From Gammaproteobacteria bacterium (GTDB lineage: Bacteria > Pseudomonadota > Gammaproteobacteria > Pseudomonadales > JAUIET01): a stretch of DNA of 64,000 nucleotides. The notes below the pieces were generated by a model, which made no database searches, was not told where the DNA came from, and saw only the letters and a program-made list of their open reading frames with translations. Both the position numbers and the translations under genes were made by a program. This document shows positions 28,919 to 39,583 of this stretch, in pieces; the stretch's first letter is position 1; each line of letters begins with the position of its first letter. The stretch covers positions 1-64,000 of the forward strand of contig JAUIHW010000016.1 in NCBI GenBank assembly GCA_030431775.1, read 5' to 3'.

Positions 28919-30085
28919 CTAACGGTGTTGTGGCATGCCGAGACCAAAGGTGGCCACCAGACCACGCAACACTTCCACCACGCCTCCGCCGAAGGTGTTG
29001 ATTAGGGCGCGGCGGTATTCGTGCTCCAGGTCACCGGCCAGAACATGCCCCTCATCGGGAGCGGAAATCAGTGCATTGGGGCCGACGATGTCCATCATCA
29101 GGCGGCAGATTTCAATAAGAATCTCGGTTGAGTACACCTTCATGGCGGACGGCAGAACCGGGCTGATTTCTTCCTGGTCCAGCTGCCAGGCCATGCGAAG
29201 ATTGGAGACTCGCATGGCTTCCAGGTAGGCGTATATCTCGGCCAGAGCTCGTTGCACACCCGGGTCATCAATAATACGACTGCCATCGTGCTCTTCTCTG
29301 GCCCATTCCAAGGTGCGCTGGAACAGCTTCCAGCCTTGTATTCCCCAGGCGGCCAGGCCCAAGCGTTCGTGGTTAAGCTGCGAGGTAATCAGCCGCCAGC
29401 CCTTGTTCAGCTCGCCGATGACGTTGTCTGCTGGTACCCGCACATCCGTGTAGTAAGAGGCATTGGTGCGCACGCTGCCGACAGTGTGGATAGGGGAAAA
29501 AGAAAACCCTGGATCTTTGGTGTCTACGCACAGAATGGAAATGCCTTTGTGCTTTGGTGCTTCAGGGTCGGTTCGACAGGCCAGAAAAACGTAATCGGCG
29601 GCTTCGGCCGCACTGGTGTAGACTTTGCTGCCATTAACGATGAAATCCTCACCGTCGCGAACGGCAGCCGTTTGCAGCGATGCCAGGTCGGTGCCGGCAG
29701 AGGGCTCTGAATAGCCAATGCAGAAATGCAACTCTCCGGCCGCAATGCCTGGTAAAAAACGTTGCTTTTGGGCCTCGCTGCCATGGTCCATAATCGCCGG
29801 ACCAACGGTATTCAGGGTAACGAAGGGCACTGGTGCGCCGGCCAGCAAAGCTTCCTCGAAAAACAACAGCTGCTCAACGGCGGTCAAGCCTCCCCCTCCG
29901 TATTCCTTAGGCCAGCCGAGGGCCAGCATATTGTCTTTGCCCATTTGCCGGATCAGGCTTTTATAGAGATCGCCTCCTTCGGCGTTGCGCAGGGTCTCCC
30001 GATACTCGGGTTTGATCAGCTCTCCGAAATAGCGGCGTAAATCTGCTCTGAGTGTGCGTTGCTCAGCGGTGTAATCAACAAACAT
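28919..30085 (-). CDS. acyl-CoA dehydrogenase family protein
   Basis: A 388-residue FAD enzyme of the acyl-CoA dehydrogenase superfamily. The FAD/substrate block YSEPSAGTDLASL is intact, as is VNGSKVYTSAAEAADY and the C-terminal YRRALINTFGGGVVEVLRG. It oxidises an acyl-CoA at the alpha-beta bond, substrate unknown. The gene starts 33 bases from a perfect palindrome and is divergent from a TetR gene that is followed by a second acyl-CoA dehydrogenase. The N-terminal half resembles the FadE28/ChsE type that acts in heteromeric complexes (inference from memory). Confidence 0.92.
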   Translation of the reverse strand: MFVDYTAEQRTLRADLRRYFGELIKPEYRETLRNAEGGDLYKSLIRQMGKDNMLALGWPKEYGGGGLTAVEQLLFFEEALLAGAPVPFVTLNTVGPAIMDHGSEAQKQRFLPGIAAGELHFCIGYSEPSAGTDLASLQTAAVRDGEDFIVNGSKVYTSAAEAADYVFLACRTDPEAPKHKGISILCVDTKDPGFSFSPIHTVGSVRTNASYYTDVRVPADNVIGELNKGWRLITSQLNHERLGLAAWGIQGWKLFQRTLEWAREEHDGSRIIDDPGVQRALAEIYAYLEAMRVSNLRMAWQLDQEEISPVLPSAMKVYSTEILIEICRLMMDIVGPNALISAPDEGHVLAGDLEHEYRRALINTFGGGVVEVLRGLVATFGLGMPQHR

Positions 30086-30118
30086 CTGGTTGGCCCTGCC
30101 GGAATGAATGGTTTACTT

Positions 30119-30146
30119 TAGTTGAAATTGAATCCAATTTCAACTA
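30119..30146. promoter_or_regulatory. 28-bp palindromic operator (probable TetR site)
   Basis: TAGTTGAAATTG (30119-30130), a four-base AATC spacer and CAATTTCAACTA (30135-30146) form a perfect inverted repeat with 12-base arms. It is centred in the 91-base gap between the divergent TetR and acyl-CoA dehydrogenase genes, 33 bases from one start and 30 from the other. This is the expected size and place of a TetR operator. It likely lets the TetR protein repress both sides. Confidence 0.85.
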
Positions 30147-30176
30147 TGCTGATCGCAACTGCTACAGGTAAATGCT

Positions 30177-30899
30177 ATGTCGGCCAATCGTGCCGCCGCG
30201 GCCGGTGATTTTCCGGTACGGCGGGCCAAGGGAGCGCAAGCTCGAGAAAAGCTCAAACTGGCCGCTGGTCGGGTGCTGGAGCGCAGTGGCTATCATGCCA
30301 TGCGCATCACCGATGTGACCGCCGAAGCCGGTGTGGCAACCGGTCTTTTTTACCACTATTTTAGCGACCTCAAAAGCCTGACCATCGAAGTGCTGCAAGA
30401 CTTCATTGCGCAGGCCCAAGATCTGGAAAAAATTGAACAGGGGGTTGCACGAAGTGACTGGTTTGGCCGTATCAAGGCACACAACACGCTGGTGGTGAAC
30501 AGCTACGCGAAACGACCGGGCCTGATGCGATGCCTTTTGCAAATGGCCGATGAAGACGCGGAATTTGCCGCCGCGATCCGAGCGTCTTTCGTGCAGTCAT
30601 TGCAATGGCTGGTCGAGCGCATGCCACGGTTATTCCCGGATGCTAGCTGTACGCCTCATCAGGCTCTGCTGGTGGTGTACAGCCTGGCTGGAAGCGGAGA
30701 AACGCTGCTGAGGGACTTCTTTATCAACCAGGACGCTGCGCTGCACAGCCAGCCCGTTAGTAAAGAAGAGCTTATAGAGCTGCTTGCGGTCATGTTCTAC
30801 CGGGGCTTGTTTCTGCAGAACCCGCCCACAGAGCAACTTAATCACACTCACTATCTGGTGCAATTGCAATGGCAGCCCGCACCGGACGAGACAACTTAG
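30177..30899 (+). CDS. TetR-family transcriptional regulator
   Basis: A 240-residue TetR protein. The helix-turn-helix lies at about residues 24-70 (LAAGRVLERSGYHAMRITDVTAEAGVATGLFYHYFSDLKSL). The C-terminal half is the ligand-binding domain and includes a tail rich in His/Gln. The adjacent palindrome and the flanking acyl-CoA dehydrogenases suggest that it senses an acyl-CoA or related compound. The next gene starts ten bases after its stop. Confidence 0.93.
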   Translation: MSANRAAAAGDFPVRRAKGAQAREKLKLAAGRVLERSGYHAMRITDVTAEAGVATGLFYHYFSDLKSLTIEVLQDFIAQAQDLEKIEQGVARSDWFGRIKAHNTLVVNSYAKRPGLMRCLLQMADEDAEFAAAIRASFVQSLQWLVERMPRLFPDASCTPHQALLVVYSLAGSGETLLRDFFINQDAALHSQPVSKEELIELLAVMFYRGLFLQNPPTEQLNHTHYLVQLQWQPAPDETT

Positions 30900-30909
30900 A
30901 GAGGACTCC

Positions 30910-32058
30910 ATGGAATTTTCATTCAGCGATGAACAGAATGCAATTCGCGACCTGGCGGGCCAGATTTTTGCCGACCTCGCCAGCGACGAACAACTATTGG
31001 CCATGCGTCGGGCAGGCCAGGACTACAATGAAAAGCTGTGGGCAACCTTGGCAGAGCAGGGCATTCTCGGGCTGGTTCTTCCTGAAGCCCTGGACGGCTC
31101 CGCACTCGGTCTGACTGAGCTGTGTCTGGTACTGGAGGAGCAGGGCAAGCATGTTGCTCCGGTGCCCTTGTATGCAAACCTGGTGCTCGGTGCACTGCCA
31201 ATTATTGAGTTTGGCAGTGAAGCGCAGCAGCAACAGCTGCTCACCGGTATGGCGCAGGGTGACCACAAACTAACGGCTGCACTGGCTGAACTGGCCATGC
31301 AGCCGCAGAACGCCAAAGGTATTACGGCGCAACGCCAAGGTGATCAGTGGGTGCTGAATGGCATGGTGGACTGTGTTCAGGACGGAGCCGTAGCGCGCTA
31401 CGTATTGTTACCTGCCAGACACGCCGCTGGTCAGGCCGTGTTTGTTCTGGACACTGAGTCCGCCGGTGTGACCGTTACTCCACAGCAGCTTGGCTTATTG
31501 GGCGCGTGGAATGCCCGCATTGAATTGAACGGTGTTCAGCTGTCTGATGAGGCGCTGTTGGGGCAGGCTGATCAGGGTGCAGAAATAGTTGAATGGTTAG
31601 AGCAGAGGGCAAATATTGCGCACTGTGCGCTGCAGGCCGGTGTCAGTGAGTCCGCGATGCGCAGAACCGCGGAGTACACGGGCGAGCGAAGCCAATTTGG
31701 GGTGCCCATTGGTAGCTTTCAGGCTCTGGCAATGCGGATGGCCGATGCCTATATCGACGTGGAGTCGATCCGTTCCACTTATTGGCTGGCGCTGTGGCGC
31801 CTTAGCAACGGCAAGGACGCCCGTGCAGAAATTCGAGCTGCTAAGTTCTGGGCATGTGAGGGCGCGCATCGTGTCGTGTGCACCGCTCAACATTTGCACG
31901 GCGGGATTGGTGCCGATGTAGAGTACCCTATTCACCGCTACTTTCTTTGGTCAAAAATGATCGCCTATTCGCTTGGTGGAGGTAGCCACCAGCTGCACCA
32001 ACTGGGCGCCTTGTTGGCCAGCAACGATAATCTTGGCTTGACTGGCCTGGAGGCGTGA
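30910..32058 (+). CDS. acyl-CoA dehydrogenase family protein
   Basis: From ATG 30910, with GAGAGGACT upstream, the protein has 382 residues. It has the acyl-CoA dehydrogenase fold (GILGLVLPEALDGSALGLTE, then ERSQFGVPIGSFQALAMRMAD and AQHLHGGIGADVEYPIHRYFLW). The central YSEPSAG-type FAD/substrate loop is poorly conserved (ALAELAMQPQNAKG), unlike in its partner at 28919. Such a degenerate subunit fits a heteromeric enzyme in which the sister chain supplies the missing part. A longer frame from 30784 is an artefact overlapping TetR. Confidence 0.9.
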   Translation: MEFSFSDEQNAIRDLAGQIFADLASDEQLLAMRRAGQDYNEKLWATLAEQGILGLVLPEALDGSALGLTELCLVLEEQGKHVAPVPLYANLVLGALPIIEFGSEAQQQQLLTGMAQGDHKLTAALAELAMQPQNAKGITAQRQGDQWVLNGMVDCVQDGAVARYVLLPARHAAGQAVFVLDTESAGVTVTPQQLGLLGAWNARIELNGVQLSDEALLGQADQGAEIVEWLEQRANIAHCALQAGVSESAMRRTAEYTGERSQFGVPIGSFQALAMRMADAYIDVESIRSTYWLALWRLSNGKDARAEIRAAKFWACEGAHRVVCTAQHLHGGIGADVEYPIHRYFLWSKMIAYSLGGGSHQLHQLGALLASNDNLGLTGLEA

Positions 32059-32172: not shown

Positions 32173-33516
32173 GTGCTGCTAACCAAGCGATTTAAGCCGC
32201 AAGCCTGGCGCTTGCTGACCGTACTACTGTTATTGGCTAGCCCTGGCCAGGCCGAGACCGGGCTAAGCAAAGCCATTGCCAACGACTACCATGGCCACCT
32301 GGCGGAGTTGTTCCGCTATTTTCATCAAAACCCGGAGCTTTCCATGCTGGAAACCCGGACGGCGGCGAGACTGGCCAAAGAGTTGCGTGAGGCAGGCTTC
32401 AAAGTCACTGAAGGTGTGGGCAATACCGGCATTGTCGCAATGCTAGAGAACGGCCCCGGGCCGCTGGTGATGATGCGTGCCGACATGGACGGGCTGCCGG
32501 TTCAGGAGAAATCCGGGCTGGCTTATGCATCCACGGCGCAACAGAAAGACTGGGATGGCAAGCTCGTGTACACCATGCATGCTTGCGGACACGATGTACA
32601 CATCACCAGCTTGGTCGGCACGGCTCGGCGCATGGTGGCATTAAAGGACCAGTGGTCTGGTACCCTGATGCTAATCGGTCAGCCTGCTGAAGAGCGTGTT
32701 CAGGGTGCAGCAGCCATGATGGCCGATGGGCTATGGAAGCGCTTCGGAAAACCGGACTATGCCCTGGCGTTTCACGTTTCCTCCTTAATTGAGGCCGGCA
32801 AAATCATCGCGCCCAGTGGCGCCCCTTATTCAGGCGCCGACACGGTTGATATCATCGTACACGGCGTGGGAGCGCATGGAGCGCACCCGCATGCCGGAAA
32901 AGACCCGGTTGTTATCGGCGCACAAATTGTACTGGCCTTACAGACCATCGTCAGTCGCGAGATTCCACCCACCGAACCGGCAGTCATCACAGTGGGCTCA
33001 TTCCACAGCGGCACCAAGCACAATATAATTTCCGACCGGGCGCACCTACAGCTAACGGTTAGGAGTGACAGCAGTGAAACTCGCGAAAAATTGCTGGCAG
33101 GCATTAAGCGGGTGGCGGTTAATGTCGGCCGTGCCGCAGGTCTGTCGGAAGACAAGCTGCCTGAAGTAGTGGTATCTGATGAAAGCGTTCCGCCAACAGT
33201 CAATGATGAGGCCTTGTCTTTGCGGCTGGCCGCACTGTGGGAAAATAAGATGGGTGCGGACATTTTTGATCGTAATTATCGAAAACTCGGCATGGGTGCG
33301 GAGGACTTCGGCCTGTTTACCACCGACCCTTACATACCTTCCCACTATTTCGCGGTAGGTGGAACCCCGGCACAGGACTTTGTCGCGGCCGCGAACGGTG
33401 GACCGCCGGTGCCAAGCCATCACAGCCCTTTATTCAAGGTGTCGCCTGAGCCTGCTATTACCACCGGTGTTGAAGCCACAGTGCACGCTCTGATTGAACT
33501 GCTGCAGGACCAATAG
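32173..33516 (+). CDS. M20 family amidohydrolase/carboxypeptidase, exported
   Basis: A 447-residue protein with a GTG start (AGAGAGAAAAGCC upstream) and a signal peptide ending near SPGQAET. The M20 zinc-site blocks are visible: MMRADMDGLPVQE, HACGHDVHIT, GQPAEE and later MGAEDFGLF. The active site is a di-metal centre for amide bond hydrolysis. It should be periplasmic, acting on N-acyl amino acids, hippurate-like compounds or similar. It is separated from the acyl-CoA dehydrogenase by 114 bases containing a loop without a T run. Confidence 0.9.
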   Translation: MLLTKRFKPQAWRLLTVLLLLASPGQAETGLSKAIANDYHGHLAELFRYFHQNPELSMLETRTAARLAKELREAGFKVTEGVGNTGIVAMLENGPGPLVMMRADMDGLPVQEKSGLAYASTAQQKDWDGKLVYTMHACGHDVHITSLVGTARRMVALKDQWSGTLMLIGQPAEERVQGAAAMMADGLWKRFGKPDYALAFHVSSLIEAGKIIAPSGAPYSGADTVDIIVHGVGAHGAHPHAGKDPVVIGAQIVLALQTIVSREIPPTEPAVITVGSFHSGTKHNIISDRAHLQLTVRSDSSETREKLLAGIKRVAVNVGRAAGLSEDKLPEVVVSDESVPPTVNDEALSLRLAALWENKMGADIFDRNYRKLGMGAEDFGLFTTDPYIPSHYFAVGGTPAQDFVAAANGGPPVPSHHSPLFKVSPEPAITTGVEATVHALIELLQDQ

Positions 33517-33524
33517 CACTCGTA

Positions 33525-34913
33525 ATGAGCCGGCCGACATTTGCTGACTACGTGCGCATCGAGCAGGTTCGCCTGCTGCAGGGCGATGAGGCCGGTGATA
33601 ACAACCTGGGCATTAATGGGCAGAACTTTGACGCAGCCTTGCATTCGCGTGCCAGACTCCTGGTCAGGGAGCATGACTGGGAGCGCCTGCTGACCAGTCC
33701 CCAACAGTGGTATCAGCGCTCATTGTTGGCCGCGGGTTTGCTCTTCGCAGTACTCGGAGTGGTCGCCGTTATCAATGCCCTGTCCAGCTCGGGCAGCAAC
33801 CACTTGCTGAATATTTACTGGTTGTTGCTGGTGCTGCTGGGTTTTAACAGCCTGTCGATTTTGCTTTGGGTCTTTGGCTGTTTGGCGAATATAGGCGGTC
33901 TGATCAGTGGTACATTGGGAAGCATCCCCCTGAGTCTGCAGCGAATTATGGCACGCTGGCGTAACAATGCTGAACGCCCGGCCTTGCAGGCGTGGTATGA
34001 CTCGCTCTTTAGTGGTTCGATGGGTGTCTGGAGGCTGAGTACGGTCAGCCATGCATTGTGGCTGGTGTACCTTGGCAGTGGCCTACTGGCCCTGTTAGTC
34101 ATGTTCTCGGTCCGCCAGTACGACTTTGTCTGGGGGTCGACCTTATTGTCGGCAGACTTTTTCATCGCTCTGACCAATGGCCTGGCTCAAGCGTTGCAGC
34201 TGTTTGGACTGAGTATTCCGGATGCGCAAACCATTGTTGCCAGTCGCAGCGGGGACGGCGTGGTAAGTGATTCGATAGCCCGTCGGCAATGGGCCTTGTT
34301 TCTGCTGGGCGCGATCGTTCTGTACGGTTTGCTGCCCCGCTTATTGTGCGCAGGCCTGGCGTACATGCTGCTGCGCCAGCAGGAACGCAATTTTCGGCCA
34401 GATTATTATTTGCCTTATTACGTAGACTTGCGCCACCAGCTTGTGCCGGAATTCAGCGAGTCGGAAGTAGTCGACCCGGATGCGCACCCATCGCCCGTGC
34501 AGGAATCGGCAGGCAGGCCGCTGGCGCCGGCGCCGGCGATTGCTCCGGGGGCCTTGCTGATTGGTTATGAGCTGGATGCAGTCGCTGCAGCTTTGGTCAC
34601 TATCAATATTCTGAACAGCGCAGACTTGAGTCGCGCACAGCAGTACAGTCAGCAGGCGACCGGGCCGGTGGCCCTTGTGGTGGAGGGGCGCAACCTGCCA
34701 GACCGCGGCGTAAAGAGAGAGTTGGCCAGCCTGCTGGCAAATCCGGGGGGATCGTATCTGTTACTGCACCAGCCCATCGCTGGTAATACTGCGGAGGCGA
34801 AGACCTCCGAGCAACGCCTCAGAGACTGGTACCGACTGGCTGCGCAACTCAAAGTGCCGGCCGAGCAGGTAGGGCTGTTATCCACTGAACAGTTAGCGAA
34901 GCTGGGTACATGA
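33525..34913 (+). CDS. DUF2868 membrane protein, partner of the GTPase
   Basis: A 462-residue integral membrane protein with about four hydrophobic segments (QRSLLAAGLLFAVLGVVAVI; LLLVLLGFNSLSILLWVFGCLANI; a third near WLVYLGSGLLALLVMFS; a fourth near LFLLGAIVLYGLLPRL). The C-terminal ~150 residues are soluble. It matches the DUF2868 family. It starts nine bases after the M20 stop and overlaps the GTPase by four bases (ATGA). The pair is known from genomics but has no function that I know. Confidence 0.8.
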   Translation: MSRPTFADYVRIEQVRLLQGDEAGDNNLGINGQNFDAALHSRARLLVREHDWERLLTSPQQWYQRSLLAAGLLFAVLGVVAVINALSSSGSNHLLNIYWLLLVLLGFNSLSILLWVFGCLANIGGLISGTLGSIPLSLQRIMARWRNNAERPALQAWYDSLFSGSMGVWRLSTVSHALWLVYLGSGLLALLVMFSVRQYDFVWGSTLLSADFFIALTNGLAQALQLFGLSIPDAQTIVASRSGDGVVSDSIARRQWALFLLGAIVLYGLLPRLLCAGLAYMLLRQQERNFRPDYYLPYYVDLRHQLVPEFSESEVVDPDAHPSPVQESAGRPLAPAPAIAPGALLIGYELDAVAAALVTINILNSADLSRAQQYSQQATGPVALVVEGRNLPDRGVKRELASLLANPGGSYLLLHQPIAGNTAEAKTSEQRLRDWYRLAAQLKVPAEQVGLLSTEQLAKLGT

Positions 34914-36280
34914 ATACATCGCACGCAGCGCCAATACAAGTGGCGGTTGTTGGCCATACCAATACCGGAAAGACCTCGTTGGTCCGTACCCTGCTGCGCA
35001 GCAAATCCTTTGGTGCTGTCAATGATTCTGCCGGCACTACGCGCCACGTTGAACGAGCCAGTCTGCTGGCGGATGGCAAGCATGTTCTGAGCCTGTACGA
35101 TACGCCTGGCTTGGAAGACTCGCTGGGACTGCTGGCGGCCTTAAGCTCCAACGAACGAAAGCTCAGCGTCACTCGGTTGCAGAGTTTTATTGACGAAGCC
35201 GGCAAGCACCCCGGGTTTGACCAGGAAATCAAGGTGCTGCGCCAAGCCGGGCAAAGTGACCTGCTGCTGTACGTGGTGGATGTTCGAGCACGCCGTCTGG
35301 AAAAGTTCAGCGCTGAACTGGACATTCTAGCCAGCCTGGGCAAACCCATAATACCGGTGTTTAACTTTATTGTCGGGCAGACCGATCAGCTGCGACAGTG
35401 GCGTGACATGACGGTCAGCCACAACCTGCACGCTGCCTTGGAATTTGATACCGTCGCTTTTGATTTTGAAGCAGAGAAACGCCTTTATCAAAAAATGCAG
35501 AGCGTGCTTGAAAGCCGCTATGACGATTTACAGCGTTTGATTGATCACCGCAGCAGTGAATGGCAGGCATTGTGCGAAGCCGCGGTACAGCGCTCGCAAA
35601 CCCTGCTCATTGATGCGGCAATCCTGCAGGTGGACGTTGTCGACGGTGGTCGCGAAGCGGCGCTGTCCAGCTTGAGGGGTAAGGCACGCCAGCTCGAACA
35701 GCGTGGGCTGCACGACTTATTGAAGCTGTTTGCGTTTTCCAGGCAGGACATTGAGCTTGCACAATTGCCGGTCAGTGATGGGCAATGGGAGCTTGACCTT
35801 TTTTCGGTCAATACATTGCGCATGTTCGGCCTCGATGCGCGCAGCAGTGCCCTGAAGGGCGCAGCCGCAGGAGCCGGCCTTGACCTGATGGTAGGGGGTA
35901 TCAGCCTTGGTGCGGCGGCTGCGGCAGGCGCATTGCTGGGTGCCGGTGTCAGCACCTTCAGGCGCTACGGTAAGCGCATCACCTCGGCGCTGAGCAGCCA
36001 GGACAGCATTTGTCTGGACGATACCAGTATGAGCCTGTTGCTGCTGCGCCAGCTGGACCTGTTGCGCCGGCTTACTCATCGTGGGCATGCGGCTCAGGGG
36101 CAAATGGAGTTGAGTACCATGGACGACAAGCAGCAGCACCCGCTGCCGGAGCAGTGGCCGAGCATCCTTGCCGGTTTGCGAACCGGCTTGGCCAATCGCA
36201 GTGCGAGCAATAGCCAGTTCCAGAGCGCGAAAGCAGAGCTCTTTGCCGTGCTGACTAAAACCAGTTTTTCCACTTCATGA
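34910..36280 (+). CDS. GTPase with C-terminal DUF3482 domain
   Basis: A 456-residue GTPase. The G1 loop GHTNTGKTS is at residues 15-23; SAGTTRH carries the G2 threonine, and G3 is DTPG. A G4-type signature is poor (VFNFIVGQT). The C-terminal part has a Gly/Ala-rich membrane-inserting helix (GGISLGAAAAAGALLGAGVS), typical of the DUF3482 group. It is translationally coupled to DUF2868. The architecture resembles YcjX/YcjF-like stress systems without being one. It converges with the ZntB-like gene over 26 bases. Confidence 0.85.
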   Translation: MNTSHAAPIQVAVVGHTNTGKTSLVRTLLRSKSFGAVNDSAGTTRHVERASLLADGKHVLSLYDTPGLEDSLGLLAALSSNERKLSVTRLQSFIDEAGKHPGFDQEIKVLRQAGQSDLLLYVVDVRARRLEKFSAELDILASLGKPIIPVFNFIVGQTDQLRQWRDMTVSHNLHAALEFDTVAFDFEAEKRLYQKMQSVLESRYDDLQRLIDHRSSEWQALCEAAVQRSQTLLIDAAILQVDVVDGGREAALSSLRGKARQLEQRGLHDLLKLFAFSRQDIELAQLPVSDGQWELDLFSVNTLRMFGLDARSSALKGAAAGAGLDLMVGGISLGAAAAAGALLGAGVSTFRRYGKRITSALSSQDSICLDDTSMSLLLLRQLDLLRRLTHRGHAAQGQMELSTMDDKQQHPLPEQWPSILAGLRTGLANRSASNSQFQSAKAELFAVLTKTSFSTS

Positions 36281-37229
36281 TGATGATCTGAACGGCGGCG
36301 ATTAGCAGAGTTGCACCCAAAAACCAGCTGAACGCTGTTGGGCTCTGCACTCCGGGCATACCGCCAATATTGATGCCAAACAAGCCGGTTAGGAAGCTCA
36401 ATGGTAGAAAAATTGCCGTAATGACGCTGAGCAGATAAAGATTGCGGCCAAGTCTCTGAGACTGAACGTTAGTTACATCGTCTCTGATCAATTGGGCCCG
36501 ATCGCGAATAGCGTCCAGTGCTTCGACCAAGCGGGTAATCTGATCGTAGGCTTCCTGCAAAGCTCGGCGCTGCTTCGCGCTCATCCAGTTCACATCCGCC
36601 CTGCGCAAATCGTTCAAGGCATCGCGCTGCGGTGCTATGTATCGCCTCAGTAACACTACTTTTTTGCGTATCTCGGAAACCTTGGCATGGACATCGGTTT
36701 CCTGATCCTCAATGATAGACTCTTCCAGAGCCGCAATATGGTCATCCAGTTCGCTGATTACCGGCTCGATACGCTGCAGCAATCCGGTGCAAAGATCGAC
36801 AATCAGCTCAGAGGTGGATTTCGGGCCTTTCCCGGCCAATAGCCGCTGGCGAATATCCTGCACAGCGCTAAGTTGACGGTATCGGGCGCTCAGTACCCGG
36901 CCGGGCTCAATCCACAGCCGGATGCCAACCATGTCTTCGACGGCGGAGTCAGCATTCAGGTTGACGCCGCGCAACATCAGCAAAATGCTCTCGCCAATTT
37001 GCAGGCAACGCGGCCGAATGTCAGACAACAGCAAGCTGTTAGCGCTGTTCTCATCGAGTGTGTTGGCCAGCGCAATCAAGTCCTGGCCGCTGGCCCAGGA
37101 CGGCGCATCAAGATGTAACCAGACGTTGGTGAGTCTGGTATTGCTAACCTCACTATCGTCCAGCTCACGCGCGCCACCTTTACCATCCAGCTGAAAGGCA
37201 CACAAAAATACCCGTTCTTCCTTGCTCAT
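36255..37229 (-). CDS. ZntB/CorA-family metal ion transporter
   Basis: A 324-residue CorA-superfamily protein, the length of ZntB. The cytosolic funnel has long helices; the two C-terminal membrane helices end with the signature GINIGGMPG, the ZntB version of GMN. It would carry zinc or another divalent ion. The start overlaps the mechanosensitive channel's stop by four bases (TGA/ATG), so both are in one operon, channel first. Its 3' end overlaps the end of the opposite GTPase gene. Confidence 0.9.
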   Translation of the reverse strand: MSKEERVFLCAFQLDGKGGARELDDSEVSNTRLTNVWLHLDAPSWASGQDLIALANTLDENSANSLLLSDIRPRCLQIGESILLMLRGVNLNADSAVEDMVGIRLWIEPGRVLSARYRQLSAVQDIRQRLLAGKGPKSTSELIVDLCTGLLQRIEPVISELDDHIAALEESIIEDQETDVHAKVSEIRKKVVLLRRYIAPQRDALNDLRRADVNWMSAKQRRALQEAYDQITRLVEALDAIRDRAQLIRDDVTNVQSQRLGRNLYLLSVITAIFLPLSFLTGLFGINIGGMPGVQSPTAFSWFLGATLLIAAVQIIIMKWKNWF

Positions 37230-39583
37230 GAGTGGGCGCCGGGCTGGTCTGGCGGACGCGCTTCTTGCGGGCCAATAATATGCACGTCACGCTGCGGAAA
37301 AGGAATGCTGATACCGGCTGCTCTGAACGAGCGGTCTATCTCGAAGTTTAAATCACTGCGCACAAACGGCCAGTTGCGAATATCTCTTATAAAACAGCGT
37401 AACTCAAAATTCAGCGCGCTGTCGCCGAAACCCATGAATAACACCCGAGGCATCGGCAGATTGCGGAAATTGTTTTCCTGAATGACGTCGGGGTGTTCGT
37501 GGGCAACCTTAAGCAGTATTTCCCGCACCATCGCGGTGTCACTGCCATAGGCAACACCCACCGGAACAATGACACGCCCGTGCGGGTCATTCAAAGTCCA
37601 GTTGACGACCTGCTGAGAAATGAATTCGGAATTGGGTACAACCACATCGCTACGGTCAAAGGTCTCGATCTCGGTAGAACGCACACGGATGTTTTTAACC
37701 ACACCCTCAGTGCCGCCAACGACCACCCAGTCACCACGCCGGATCGGGCGCTCAAACAAAAGAATAATGCCTGAGACGAAGTTGTTGACGATATTCTGTA
37801 AACCGAAGCCAATTCCAACCGATAGCGCACCAGCAACAATAGCCAGGTTCTGAAAACTGAAACCGGCCATTGATAGCCCTATGATCAGGGCCAGCATGAA
37901 GCCGGCATAACCGATCAGCGTGAGCACGGTTTCCCTGGCACTGGATTCAAAGCGCGCCAGCAGGCTGGAGGTGCCGACCACCTTATTCTTGAAGGAATTT
38001 GCCAGCATCAACAGCAAGGCAAATAGCAACACGCCGAGCAGGATTTTAGCGGGGATAATCTGGGTTTCACCGAAGGCGAAGCCATCCTCGAACAGCCGCC
38101 GGAACCAGGCCCAACTGACGTCAAGCAATTCCCAGGCCTGAAGAAATACCACGGCTGCGAGGCCCCAAACGACGATCAGGGAAAAGAAGCGAAACCACAA
38201 CAGCCCGGGCACATGCGCGTCCGCCGCCACCGCCAGCTTTTTGCGCACTGCCCGGTGCCAGCGACGCTGCCCAGTATCCAGCCCGTCGAACACCTCGCGT
38301 GTGAATTCGTTGAGTAACCAGAGAATGCTGATGGCCAACAGCGTGCCGATAAAGCCCTGTAGCAGGTAGGCGGAAAAATTAAGGTAACCGCCGATTTCCG
38401 CAATCCCGGTAACCAGCAGCAGACTGACCAGAACACCGCGCAATTTGCGGCTGCGGCCGGCGAAGCGTTCCAGGCTGTCAATCAGCCAAATCAACCAGAT
38501 CAGGTTGCCGGCGAGGCCCAGCATAATGCACAGGCGAATGAAGTGCGCCATGCTTTCTGGTAGCTGTGCGGCCACCATGCTGAATAACAGGGAGATAAAC
38601 ACCAGGCCAAGCAGTACACGTATTCGTTGGGCCAGCGCGTGCCTGCGCTTTGGCTGGATAGGCGCAAACACCCATTGCGTGTTGCCAGGCTCCAAAGTGG
38701 CGCGAATCACAACGCTCGCCCAAAAAAACATGGTCAGCAGGTAACACAAGTGTTTTATAAGGGCTGTGGAGCCGTTATTCGCCGGCGGGAACAGCAGCCA
38801 GTACAGTGAGGCGACGCTCAAAGGCAGCAAAACAAAAGCCATTCGGTAGATGGCTTCGCGCATGGCCAGGCGGAAGCGGTCGAAATTGCCGTAGCCTTGT
38901 TCTGACTGCAAGCCCAATACCTGGGTGCGTCGAATAAAACTGAGGTACGCGCCCAGTAGCACCGCAACCAGGCATAAATACAATAGACCGCGTTGCCGCG
39001 CCAGGGCGTCCCATACGCCACCGGACAACTTGCGCACAACCTCCATTGTCGCGCCCAGAACCTGGTTGCGCTCAGCAAAAAAACGTTTGAGTACCGCCAT
39101 CGCTGTGCGCGAATTCTGCTGCAGCCGACTTACCAGCATGGAGCCCTTGTACTCAGTCAGTTGTTGCAGAACAGCGTCCACCCGATTGGCGAGCAGTTGG
39201 CAGTCAATGGCGATTTTCTTCTGTGACTGAATGCTGGACTTTATGTCCCTGAGCTCGGCTTCGAACACATCGGCCGCGTTGTCATCGTCGCCAAGGTCCA
39301 GTGCCGCGAGATTGTTGTTCAGAGTTTGCAGTTGCGCTTCTGCCGCGGCCACACAGTCACCAATTCGGCTGCGGGCCTGATTGACCTCGACAACGTGCTG
39401 TTCAAGTTGCGCCGGGTCCAGCTCCCCTTGTTGCAGATCAGCTTCAACAGAGGCCAATTGCTGGCGCAATTCAAGTGTATCTATATCGGACTGCGCGCTG
39501 ATTTGCAGGGCATAAAGCAGTGCAAGCAGCACACAAACGAAACGGCGGCAATTGGTGGTGAAGGCAGCGCCCGGTGTTGCCAT
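37226..39583 (-). CDS. mechanosensitive ion channel (MscS/MscK-like, large)
   Basis: A 785-residue protein. A signal peptide ends near ALQISAQS, followed by a coiled-coil-rich periplasmic region to about residue 180. Several transmembrane segments follow, then the MscS pore and beta domain: GIGFGLQNIVNNFVSGIILLFERPIRRGD and the C-terminal VPNSEFISQQVVNWT. The size is between MscS and MscK. It protects against osmotic downshift in the inner membrane. It overlaps the ZntB-like gene by four bases. Confidence 0.92.
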   Translation of the reverse strand: MATPGAAFTTNCRRFVCVLLALLYALQISAQSDIDTLELRQQLASVEADLQQGELDPAQLEQHVVEVNQARSRIGDCVAAAEAQLQTLNNNLAALDLGDDDNAADVFEAELRDIKSSIQSQKKIAIDCQLLANRVDAVLQQLTEYKGSMLVSRLQQNSRTAMAVLKRFFAERNQVLGATMEVVRKLSGGVWDALARQRGLLYLCLVAVLLGAYLSFIRRTQVLGLQSEQGYGNFDRFRLAMREAIYRMAFVLLPLSVASLYWLLFPPANNGSTALIKHLCYLLTMFFWASVVIRATLEPGNTQWVFAPIQPKRRHALAQRIRVLLGLVFISLLFSMVAAQLPESMAHFIRLCIMLGLAGNLIWLIWLIDSLERFAGRSRKLRGVLVSLLLVTGIAEIGGYLNFSAYLLQGFIGTLLAISILWLLNEFTREVFDGLDTGQRRWHRAVRKKLAVAADAHVPGLLWFRFFSLIVVWGLAAVVFLQAWELLDVSWAWFRRLFEDGFAFGETQIIPAKILLGVLLFALLLMLANSFKNKVVGTSSLLARFESSARETVLTLIGYAGFMLALIIGLSMAGFSFQNLAIVAGALSVGIGFGLQNIVNNFVSGIILLFERPIRRGDWVVVGGTEGVVKNIRVRSTEIETFDRSDVVVPNSEFISQQVVNWTLNDPHGRVIVPVGVAYGSDTAMVREILLKVAHEHPDVIQENNFRNLPMPRVLFMGFGDSALNFELRCFIRDIRNWPFVRSDLNFEIDRSFRAAGISIPFPQRDVHIIGPQEARPPDQPGAHS

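Follow-up and report, generated by a model that had tools for sequence, protein, structure and literature searches.

A DUF2868 membrane protein and a DUF3482 GTPase form a fixed gene pair and a candidate inner-membrane switch

We analyzed a 64,000-nucleotide stretch of contig JAUIHW010000016.1 (assembly GCA_030431775.1, Gammaproteobacteria bacterium, lineage JAUIET01), hereafter the window, with a focus on two neighboring plus-strand genes that encode a DUF2868 membrane protein (33525-34913, 462 amino acids) and a GTPase with a DUF3482 region (34910-36280, 456 amino acids). Their frames overlap by 4 bases. On the minus strand lie a ZntB-like CorA-family transporter gene (36255-37229, 324 amino acids), which overlaps the GTPase gene tail to tail by 26 bases, and an MscS/MscK-like mechanosensitive channel gene (37226-39583, 785 amino acids), which overlaps the transporter gene by 4 bases. 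An original prediction made from the sequence alone had described these four genes, their positions, and their overlaps, and open reading frame coordinates and Pfam domains agree with that description. Scores stand well above the Pfam cut-offs for DUF2868 (PF11067, 214.6 bits versus 26.8), DUF3482 (PF11981, 249.6 bits versus 29.2), and the CorA family in the ZntB-like protein (228.3 bits versus 27); the MMR_HSR1 domain of the GTPase also exceeds its cut-off (56.4 bits), and the MscS beta and C-terminal domains of the channel protein were confirmed. Because the transporter and the channel fall short of the NCBIfam equivalog cut-offs for ZntB (NF007092, 248 versus 292 bits) and MscK (NF008438, 242 versus 991 bits), only the names ZntB-like and MscK-like are justified. 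No RNA family was detected in the window at the gathering threshold.

The DUF2868 and GTPase genes are associated far beyond chance. In 299 genomes sampled evenly across the phylum, DUF3482 and DUF2868 exceeded their cut-offs in the identical 29 genomes, all of which belong to the window's class, and the hits were adjacent, on one strand, and ordered with DUF2868 first (in one genome, G225, they share a single frame). A tblastn search placed a DUF2868 match upstream of the GTPase in 80 of 81 further loci. The full set comprised 109 of 110 loci, including the window; the G225 locus (L088) was dropped for lack of a tblastn hit, L089 (genome G279) was excluded from the pair counts since its match is a TraT protein, and L090 and L091 are the ends of the window's own contig. 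All such counts refer to loci rather than independent species, and species may overlap between the genome sets. By profile, DUF2868 was found in 108 of the 109 loci, and in all 108 it precedes the GTPase, ending no more than 0.7 kb before the GTPase frame and usually overlapping it, while in the sole exception, L138, the contig begins a mere 470 or so bases upstream of the GTPase. We conclude that the two genes form a fixed unit, and the pairing that the original prediction had proposed therefore stands.

Within the order this unit is common but patchy, with DUF3482 over its cut-off in 59 of 194 genomes. Among the 80 relatives kept out of 531, many genomes of Pseudomonas, Marinomonas, and Nitrosomonas carry the pair, and the available part of one publication gives the two families consecutive gene numbers in Pseudomonas aeruginosa (PMC12864544). 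Three records of a plasmid collection contain a GTPase match: two are 2.17-Mb Neisseria gonorrhoeae entries filed as plasmids, and the third, plasmid pTs485, has DUF2868 and the GTPase annotated side by side. On this Thiodictyon plasmid, the genes for the GTPase and for a long DUF2868 protein adjoin light-harvesting (puf) genes (L245:3872-7419).

Another genome of the window's genus, G299, carries the pair at L173:8029-10850, with 44% identity to the window for DUF2868 and 58% for the GTPase, compared with 57-85% for eight flanking genes (78% for an M20 peptidase, 74% for a desaturase, 73% for a TetR regulator, and 57% and 61% for two others). DUF2868 thus has the lowest identity of any gene compared between these two genomes, and the GTPase lies at the low end of the range yet within it. 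In G225, one 720-amino-acid frame (L088:9603-11765) joins DUF2868 (50.8 bits) with the C-terminal part of DUF3482 (two stretches, 46 bits in total), both over their cut-offs, and it contains neither the P-loop pattern nor DTPG. This fusion supports a physical partnership between DUF2868 and the GTPase, and it suggests that a form of the system without a nucleotide site may exist. A search for relatives of the fusion was unsuccessful.

The GTPase itself combines an Era/Der-like G domain (approximately residues 5-205) with a helical DUF3482 region. Its structural model had a mean predicted local distance difference test score (pLDDT) of 79.7, with good values in the G domain, and among the structural matches listed this domain was closest to Era (7c1o: Z score 18.0, root mean square deviation 3.4, 170 residues aligned) and Der; the absence of any given fold from the matches listed carries no weight as evidence. 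Residues G20, K21, T44, D64, P66, G67, N152, W164, and D180 are invariant across the 109 GTPases. The G1 motif is kept, with GHxNxGK[ST] in 107 of 109 sequences and G20 and K21 in all of them (GHTNTGKTS in the window, residues 15-23, 34952-34978, plus strand), as is G3, with DTPG in 108 of 109. Like Era and Der, then, the protein has the G domain fold together with G1 and G3, whereas no KH domain or second G domain scored over a Pfam cut-off (MMR_HSR1 and DUF3482 alone did), scores against the Era and Der equivalogs were far below cut-off, and its G domain is followed instead by a helical DUF3482 region with a hydrophobic hairpin, while a membrane partner accompanies it in almost every locus.

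The GTPase also departs from Era and Der at G4 (residues 152-155, NFIV in the window, 35363-35374, plus strand), where NKxD was not found: N152 is present in all 109 sequences but is followed by F in 101, and NKxD is absent from the 20 most frequent tetrapeptides at this site. Given that the K and D of NKxD are missing, we treat guanine specificity as an assumption. It is conceivable that the protein uses ATP or binds nucleotides loosely, as the alignment of Der's NKTD with N-f-i-a at this position would allow; an altered G4 accompanies ATP use in YchF. The rest of the sequence is Era/Der-like, and other residues may replace the Asp, and we regard a loss of guanine specificity as somewhat unlikely.

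Beyond the G domain, the DUF3482 region contains a hydrophobic, glycine-rich hairpin (residues 317-344, 35858-35941, plus strand), in which G317, G321, G330, G334, G340, and G344 are present in all 109 sequences and D325 in 99%, so that the sequence follows a glycine-zipper pattern in which a charged residue is embedded. The original prediction had called this protein a membrane-inserting GTPase; the sequence supports a hydrophobic hairpin, which may insert into the membrane. Matches confined to this hairpin were also seen elsewhere: a TraT-family protein (L089:9923-10654) matches the hairpin region below the cut-off, and short hairpin-only DUF3482 matches occur in several other genomes. The listing of DUF3482 as a Salmonella "biomarker" in the accessible part of one paper (PMC12440251) may reflect a hairpin-level match like that of the TraT protein.

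Long helices and a glycine-rich hairpin following a G domain are reminiscent of bacterial dynamin-like proteins, and the pair could in principle be a membrane remodeller in which the helical part and hairpin form the trunk and paddle and DUF2868 serves as the membrane anchor. In PADLOC, the LeoA and LeoBC profiles match the GTPase weakly (5.4e-07 and 1.3e-05), EHD, LeoA, GIMAP, and Irga6 appear among its Foldseek matches, and bacterial dynamins are described as usually operon-paired in the portions available of two papers (PMC4159319, PMC6104087). Common to the pair and LeoA/LeoBC are a membrane GTPase paired in an operon, its helices, and a hydrophobic tip rich in glycine, but the profile matches are confined to the G domain (LeoA to residues 8-71 around the P-loop, LeoBC to residues 10-204), no dynamin profile matches DUF2868, and the partner is a multispan protein that lacks a P-loop. 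Moreover, the best structural matches are Era and Der, and those listed reach only to about residue 206 of the model, before the helical part. We therefore consider a dynamin-like remodeller unlikely. A role in anti-phage defense was also considered and rejected, as the only PADLOC matches were these weak ones to the G domain of the GTPase, with DUF2868 drawing none.

The DUF2868 protein is predicted to be a membrane protein with a separate C-terminal alpha/beta domain. In the window, it has four hydropathy peaks, which we interpret as membrane helices (residues 67-85, 100-118, 178-196, and 257-275), and a weak peak in the C-terminal domain; across 108 stop-to-stop frames, some of them cut by contig ends, 75 have four peaks and 20 have five. 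We infer the topology mainly from the even number of helices and the cytosolic partner, which would place both ends of the protein in the cytosol. The loop between helices 3 and 4 is conserved (F201, W203, and T206 at 92-96%), as is R272 in helix 4 (97%), which suggests that the loop and this arginine have a role in sensing or coupling. Sequence searches revealed no convincing relatives of DUF2868 in the PDB.

The C-terminal domain (residues 337-462, 34533-34910, plus strand) includes a PDRG motif (392-395) and W435, and it has lost the nucleotide-binding motif: the P-loop pattern GxxxxGK[ST] is found in none of the 108 DUF2868 frames. The model (mean pLDDT 82.1) contains a beta-alpha domain at residues 344-461 that is predicted to be G-domain-like. 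The top VIA-align match is a TIR domain (4c6t_A, Z 9.1, root mean square deviation 3.1, 108 residues aligned), and most of the other matches, among the 50 listed, are titled as GTPases (among them EF-Tu, EngA, EngB, aIF2, Rac, and Rab; Z 7.0-8.2); seven of the 50 are pre-ribosome chains, whose titles do not give their identity. Because Z values of this size prove little by themselves, we compared sequence profiles.

A profile of the DUF2868 tail (107 of 108 sequences, one having been dropped because it was not longer than 80 amino acids) aligned to a profile of the partner's G domain (109 sequences) with a score of 26.6 (E = 7.5e-4, probability 25%). Among 200 column shuffles the highest score was 18.9, and reversing one side gave 11.7 and 10.8. 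The tail reached at most 18.6 when compared with 33 further frame clusters of these loci, although these do not amount to 33 independent families, since at least two look like shadow frames. Scores were 15.8 against Era and 9.6 against EngB (comparison sets from which 2 of 27 and 3 of 25 loci, respectively, were dropped because the frame was not recovered), and the C-terminal half of the partner's G domain scored 25.3 with the tail, compared with 27.1 with Era, its undoubted relative. Forty random splits in which the two sides shared no genome scored 21.6-30.8 in the same register. In the alignment, W435 of DUF2868 (99% conserved) falls on W164 of the GTPase (100%), and in the models both lie in the helix that follows the strand taken as beta-5; Era has no tryptophan in this column, and the EngB alignment ends before it.

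Several results count against kinship between the tail and the G domain. Z values of 7 to 9 can reflect a common arrangement, and Foldseek returned no match for DUF2868 at E ≤ 0.001. When loci were split into Pseudomonas-like and others, the scores were 21.9 (over 21 columns only) and 23.0; with both tryptophans masked, the score was 18.5, compared with 17.5 for the best of 200 shuffles; and the alpha2-beta5 stretch alone scored 12.9, within its null (best 14.9). The signal from these alignments is modest. The tail might accordingly be an ordinary small alpha/beta domain whose likeness to G domains comes down to a common layout and one tryptophan, in which case the pair would be a membrane receptor and a soluble Era-like GTPase. 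The loss of much of the score on masking, the null-level alpha2-beta5 result, the nonsignificant Foldseek E-values, and the TIR domain at the head of the structural matches would all fit such a domain, but it would not readily explain why disjoint genome sets align in the same register, why the masked score still exceeds all 200 shuffles, or why GTPases make up most of the 50 structural matches listed. We find this explanation possible though doubtful, and we judge that the tail of DUF2868 is probably a true pseudo-G domain, a kinship that is supported but not proven.

The pseudoGTPases p190RhoGAP (pG1/pG2), CENP-M, and dynein LIC offer a parallel, in that a GTPase-like fold, predicted in the case of DUF2868, has lost its nucleotide motifs, but the DUF2868 tail differs from them in belonging to a bacterial membrane protein encoded beside an intact GTPase. 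In the part of the source available, pseudoGTPases are defined by such a fold with lost motifs (PMC5593906). A GTPase gene adjoins a membrane protein gene, as it does here, in YcjX/YcjF also, although the families differ. The original prediction had stated that no function was known for the pair, and our literature search bears this out: Pfam DUF2868 and DUF3482 carry no function, and in the accessible parts of the literature the families appear, without a function, in lists of hypothetical proteins, as indels, as Pfam markers, and in one proteome table. A DUF2868 protein of "Thiodictyon syntrophicum" was more abundant in the dark, but the corrected t-test indicated no significant change, as far as the available part of the report goes (PMC6413534), and we do not use it as support. 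The accessible text of the papers naming either family does not describe the fixed pairing, the G-like tail, or the degenerate G4. The predicted G-like fold of the tail, its lack of a P-loop, and its profile alignment with the partner's G domain are new observations here.

The original prediction had tied the GTPase pair to the adjacent channel genes and proposed a membrane-stress or lipid-remodelling system. In such an envelope-stress or osmotic module, the pair would control the ZntB-like transporter and the mechanosensitive channel, and the overlapping gene ends in the window and the membrane-linked families of the products are in keeping with it. Neither channel gene was found beside the pair in any of 28 loci of other pair-bearing genomes (E ≤ 1e-4) or in any of 81 further loci (E ≤ 1e-3), and relaxing the threshold to E 0.1 brought up no more than two short MscK stretches; the absence is less telling for some loci, since only 57 of the 80 named loci (those of at least 17.17 kb) hold both 8-kb flanks. 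We observed the convergence of the pair with channel genes in the window genome only. G299 keeps the order TetR, acyl-CoA dehydrogenase, M20 peptidase, DUF2868, GTPase, and desaturase, but the window's ZntB-MscK-YcgN block is missing beside the pair, and the MscK (54-55% identity) and ZntB (50%) genes lie together on another contig, with no YcgN in the surrounding 12 kb.

Co-occurrence at the genome level gave a different picture, in that a ZntB-like gene (E ≤ 1e-30) is present in 26 of 59 pair-bearing genomes of the order (those with DUF3482 over its cut-off) and in 26 of 135 pairless ones (Fisher p = 0.0007, kinship ignored). Because kinship was ignored in this test, and because the gene and the pair can lie about 85 kb apart on one contig (e.g., in G379), we read this co-occurrence as probably a matter of shared ancestry. 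The MscK form (E ≤ 1e-60) occurs in only 4 of the 194 genomes. Thus, a four-gene module is very improbable, the link to the channels is rejected given their absence at the relatives' loci and the conserved flanks of G299, and the channel genes here seem to be chance neighbors of the pair. Absence of the channel genes near the pair in relatives was an outcome that the original prediction had itself named as refuting it. The pair itself may still act in membrane stress or lipid remodelling. Coupled MscK-like and ZntB-like genes are found in both genomes of the genus at different places (36255-39583 in the window; L246:4472-7807 in G299), and since G299 carries them together and away from the GTPase pair, they may form a small channel-transporter unit of their own, which either landed beside the pair in the window genome or left that place in G299.

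Clustering of the frames in the 109 loci revealed no class-wide third partner. The neighbor seen most widely, in 31 loci that are mostly of Pseudomonas, is a DHFR-like gene located at about -2 kb; a glutamine-amidotransferase-like neighbor occurs chiefly in loci of Nitrosomonas, and a PlsC-like one occurs in Marinomonas-like loci (all three were named by reading their sequences). Upstream of the pair in the window, an M20-family amidohydrolase gene (32173-33516), also on the plus strand, stops 8 bases short of DUF2868. It keeps this place in G299, where its frame overlaps DUF2868 by 4 bases, and it is likely co-transcribed with DUF2868 in this genus; no match to it was found in the other loci surveyed (28 + 81). 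Farther upstream, a TetR regulator lies between two acyl-CoA dehydrogenase-like genes (28919-32058), a block that is syntenic in G299.

Taken together, these results incline us to the view that DUF2868 and the GTPase together make up, as its two subunits, a single inner-membrane switch to which the channels are unrelated. In this switch, DUF2868 would cross the inner membrane about four times, have its conserved loop between the third and fourth helices, and end in a cytosolic, degenerate relative of its partner's G domain, a pseudo-GTPase. The GTPase would bind nucleotide through its intact G1 and G3 and dock on this pseudo-G domain, which would in turn control the hairpin-bearing GTPase, and the nucleotide state would set whether the helical domain and glycine-zipper hairpin are folded or engaged with the membrane. 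The direction of signalling presumably runs from the membrane protein to the GTPase, and the task of the switch may be envelope sensing or membrane remodelling. Other observations sit less comfortably with this proposal: the model of the hairpin is of low confidence (pLDDT under 50 for residues 313-363); the balance of basic residues favors cytosolic ends only weakly (0 after helix 1, 5 of 59 after helix 2, 4 of 60 after helix 3, and 5 of 66 after helix 4); the fusion is known from a single case and, given its lack of a P-loop, nucleotide binding is perhaps not always needed; and our literature search, which left most subscription journals outside its reach, found no functional work or experiments on either protein. 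More speculatively still, the partner could descend from a duplicate of the G domain of the GTPase itself that shed the P-loop and became joined to a four-helix membrane sensor; an active and a dead G domain would then form an asymmetric pair moving the hairpin in and out of the inner membrane.

If DUF2868 is, as seems likely, the pseudo-GTPase anchor of its partner, then two domains of unknown function become one testable machine. Candidate residues for mutation are K21, N152, W164, and D325 in the GTPase and the PDRG motif and W435 in DUF2868, and dropping the channels from the picture spares misleading experiments.

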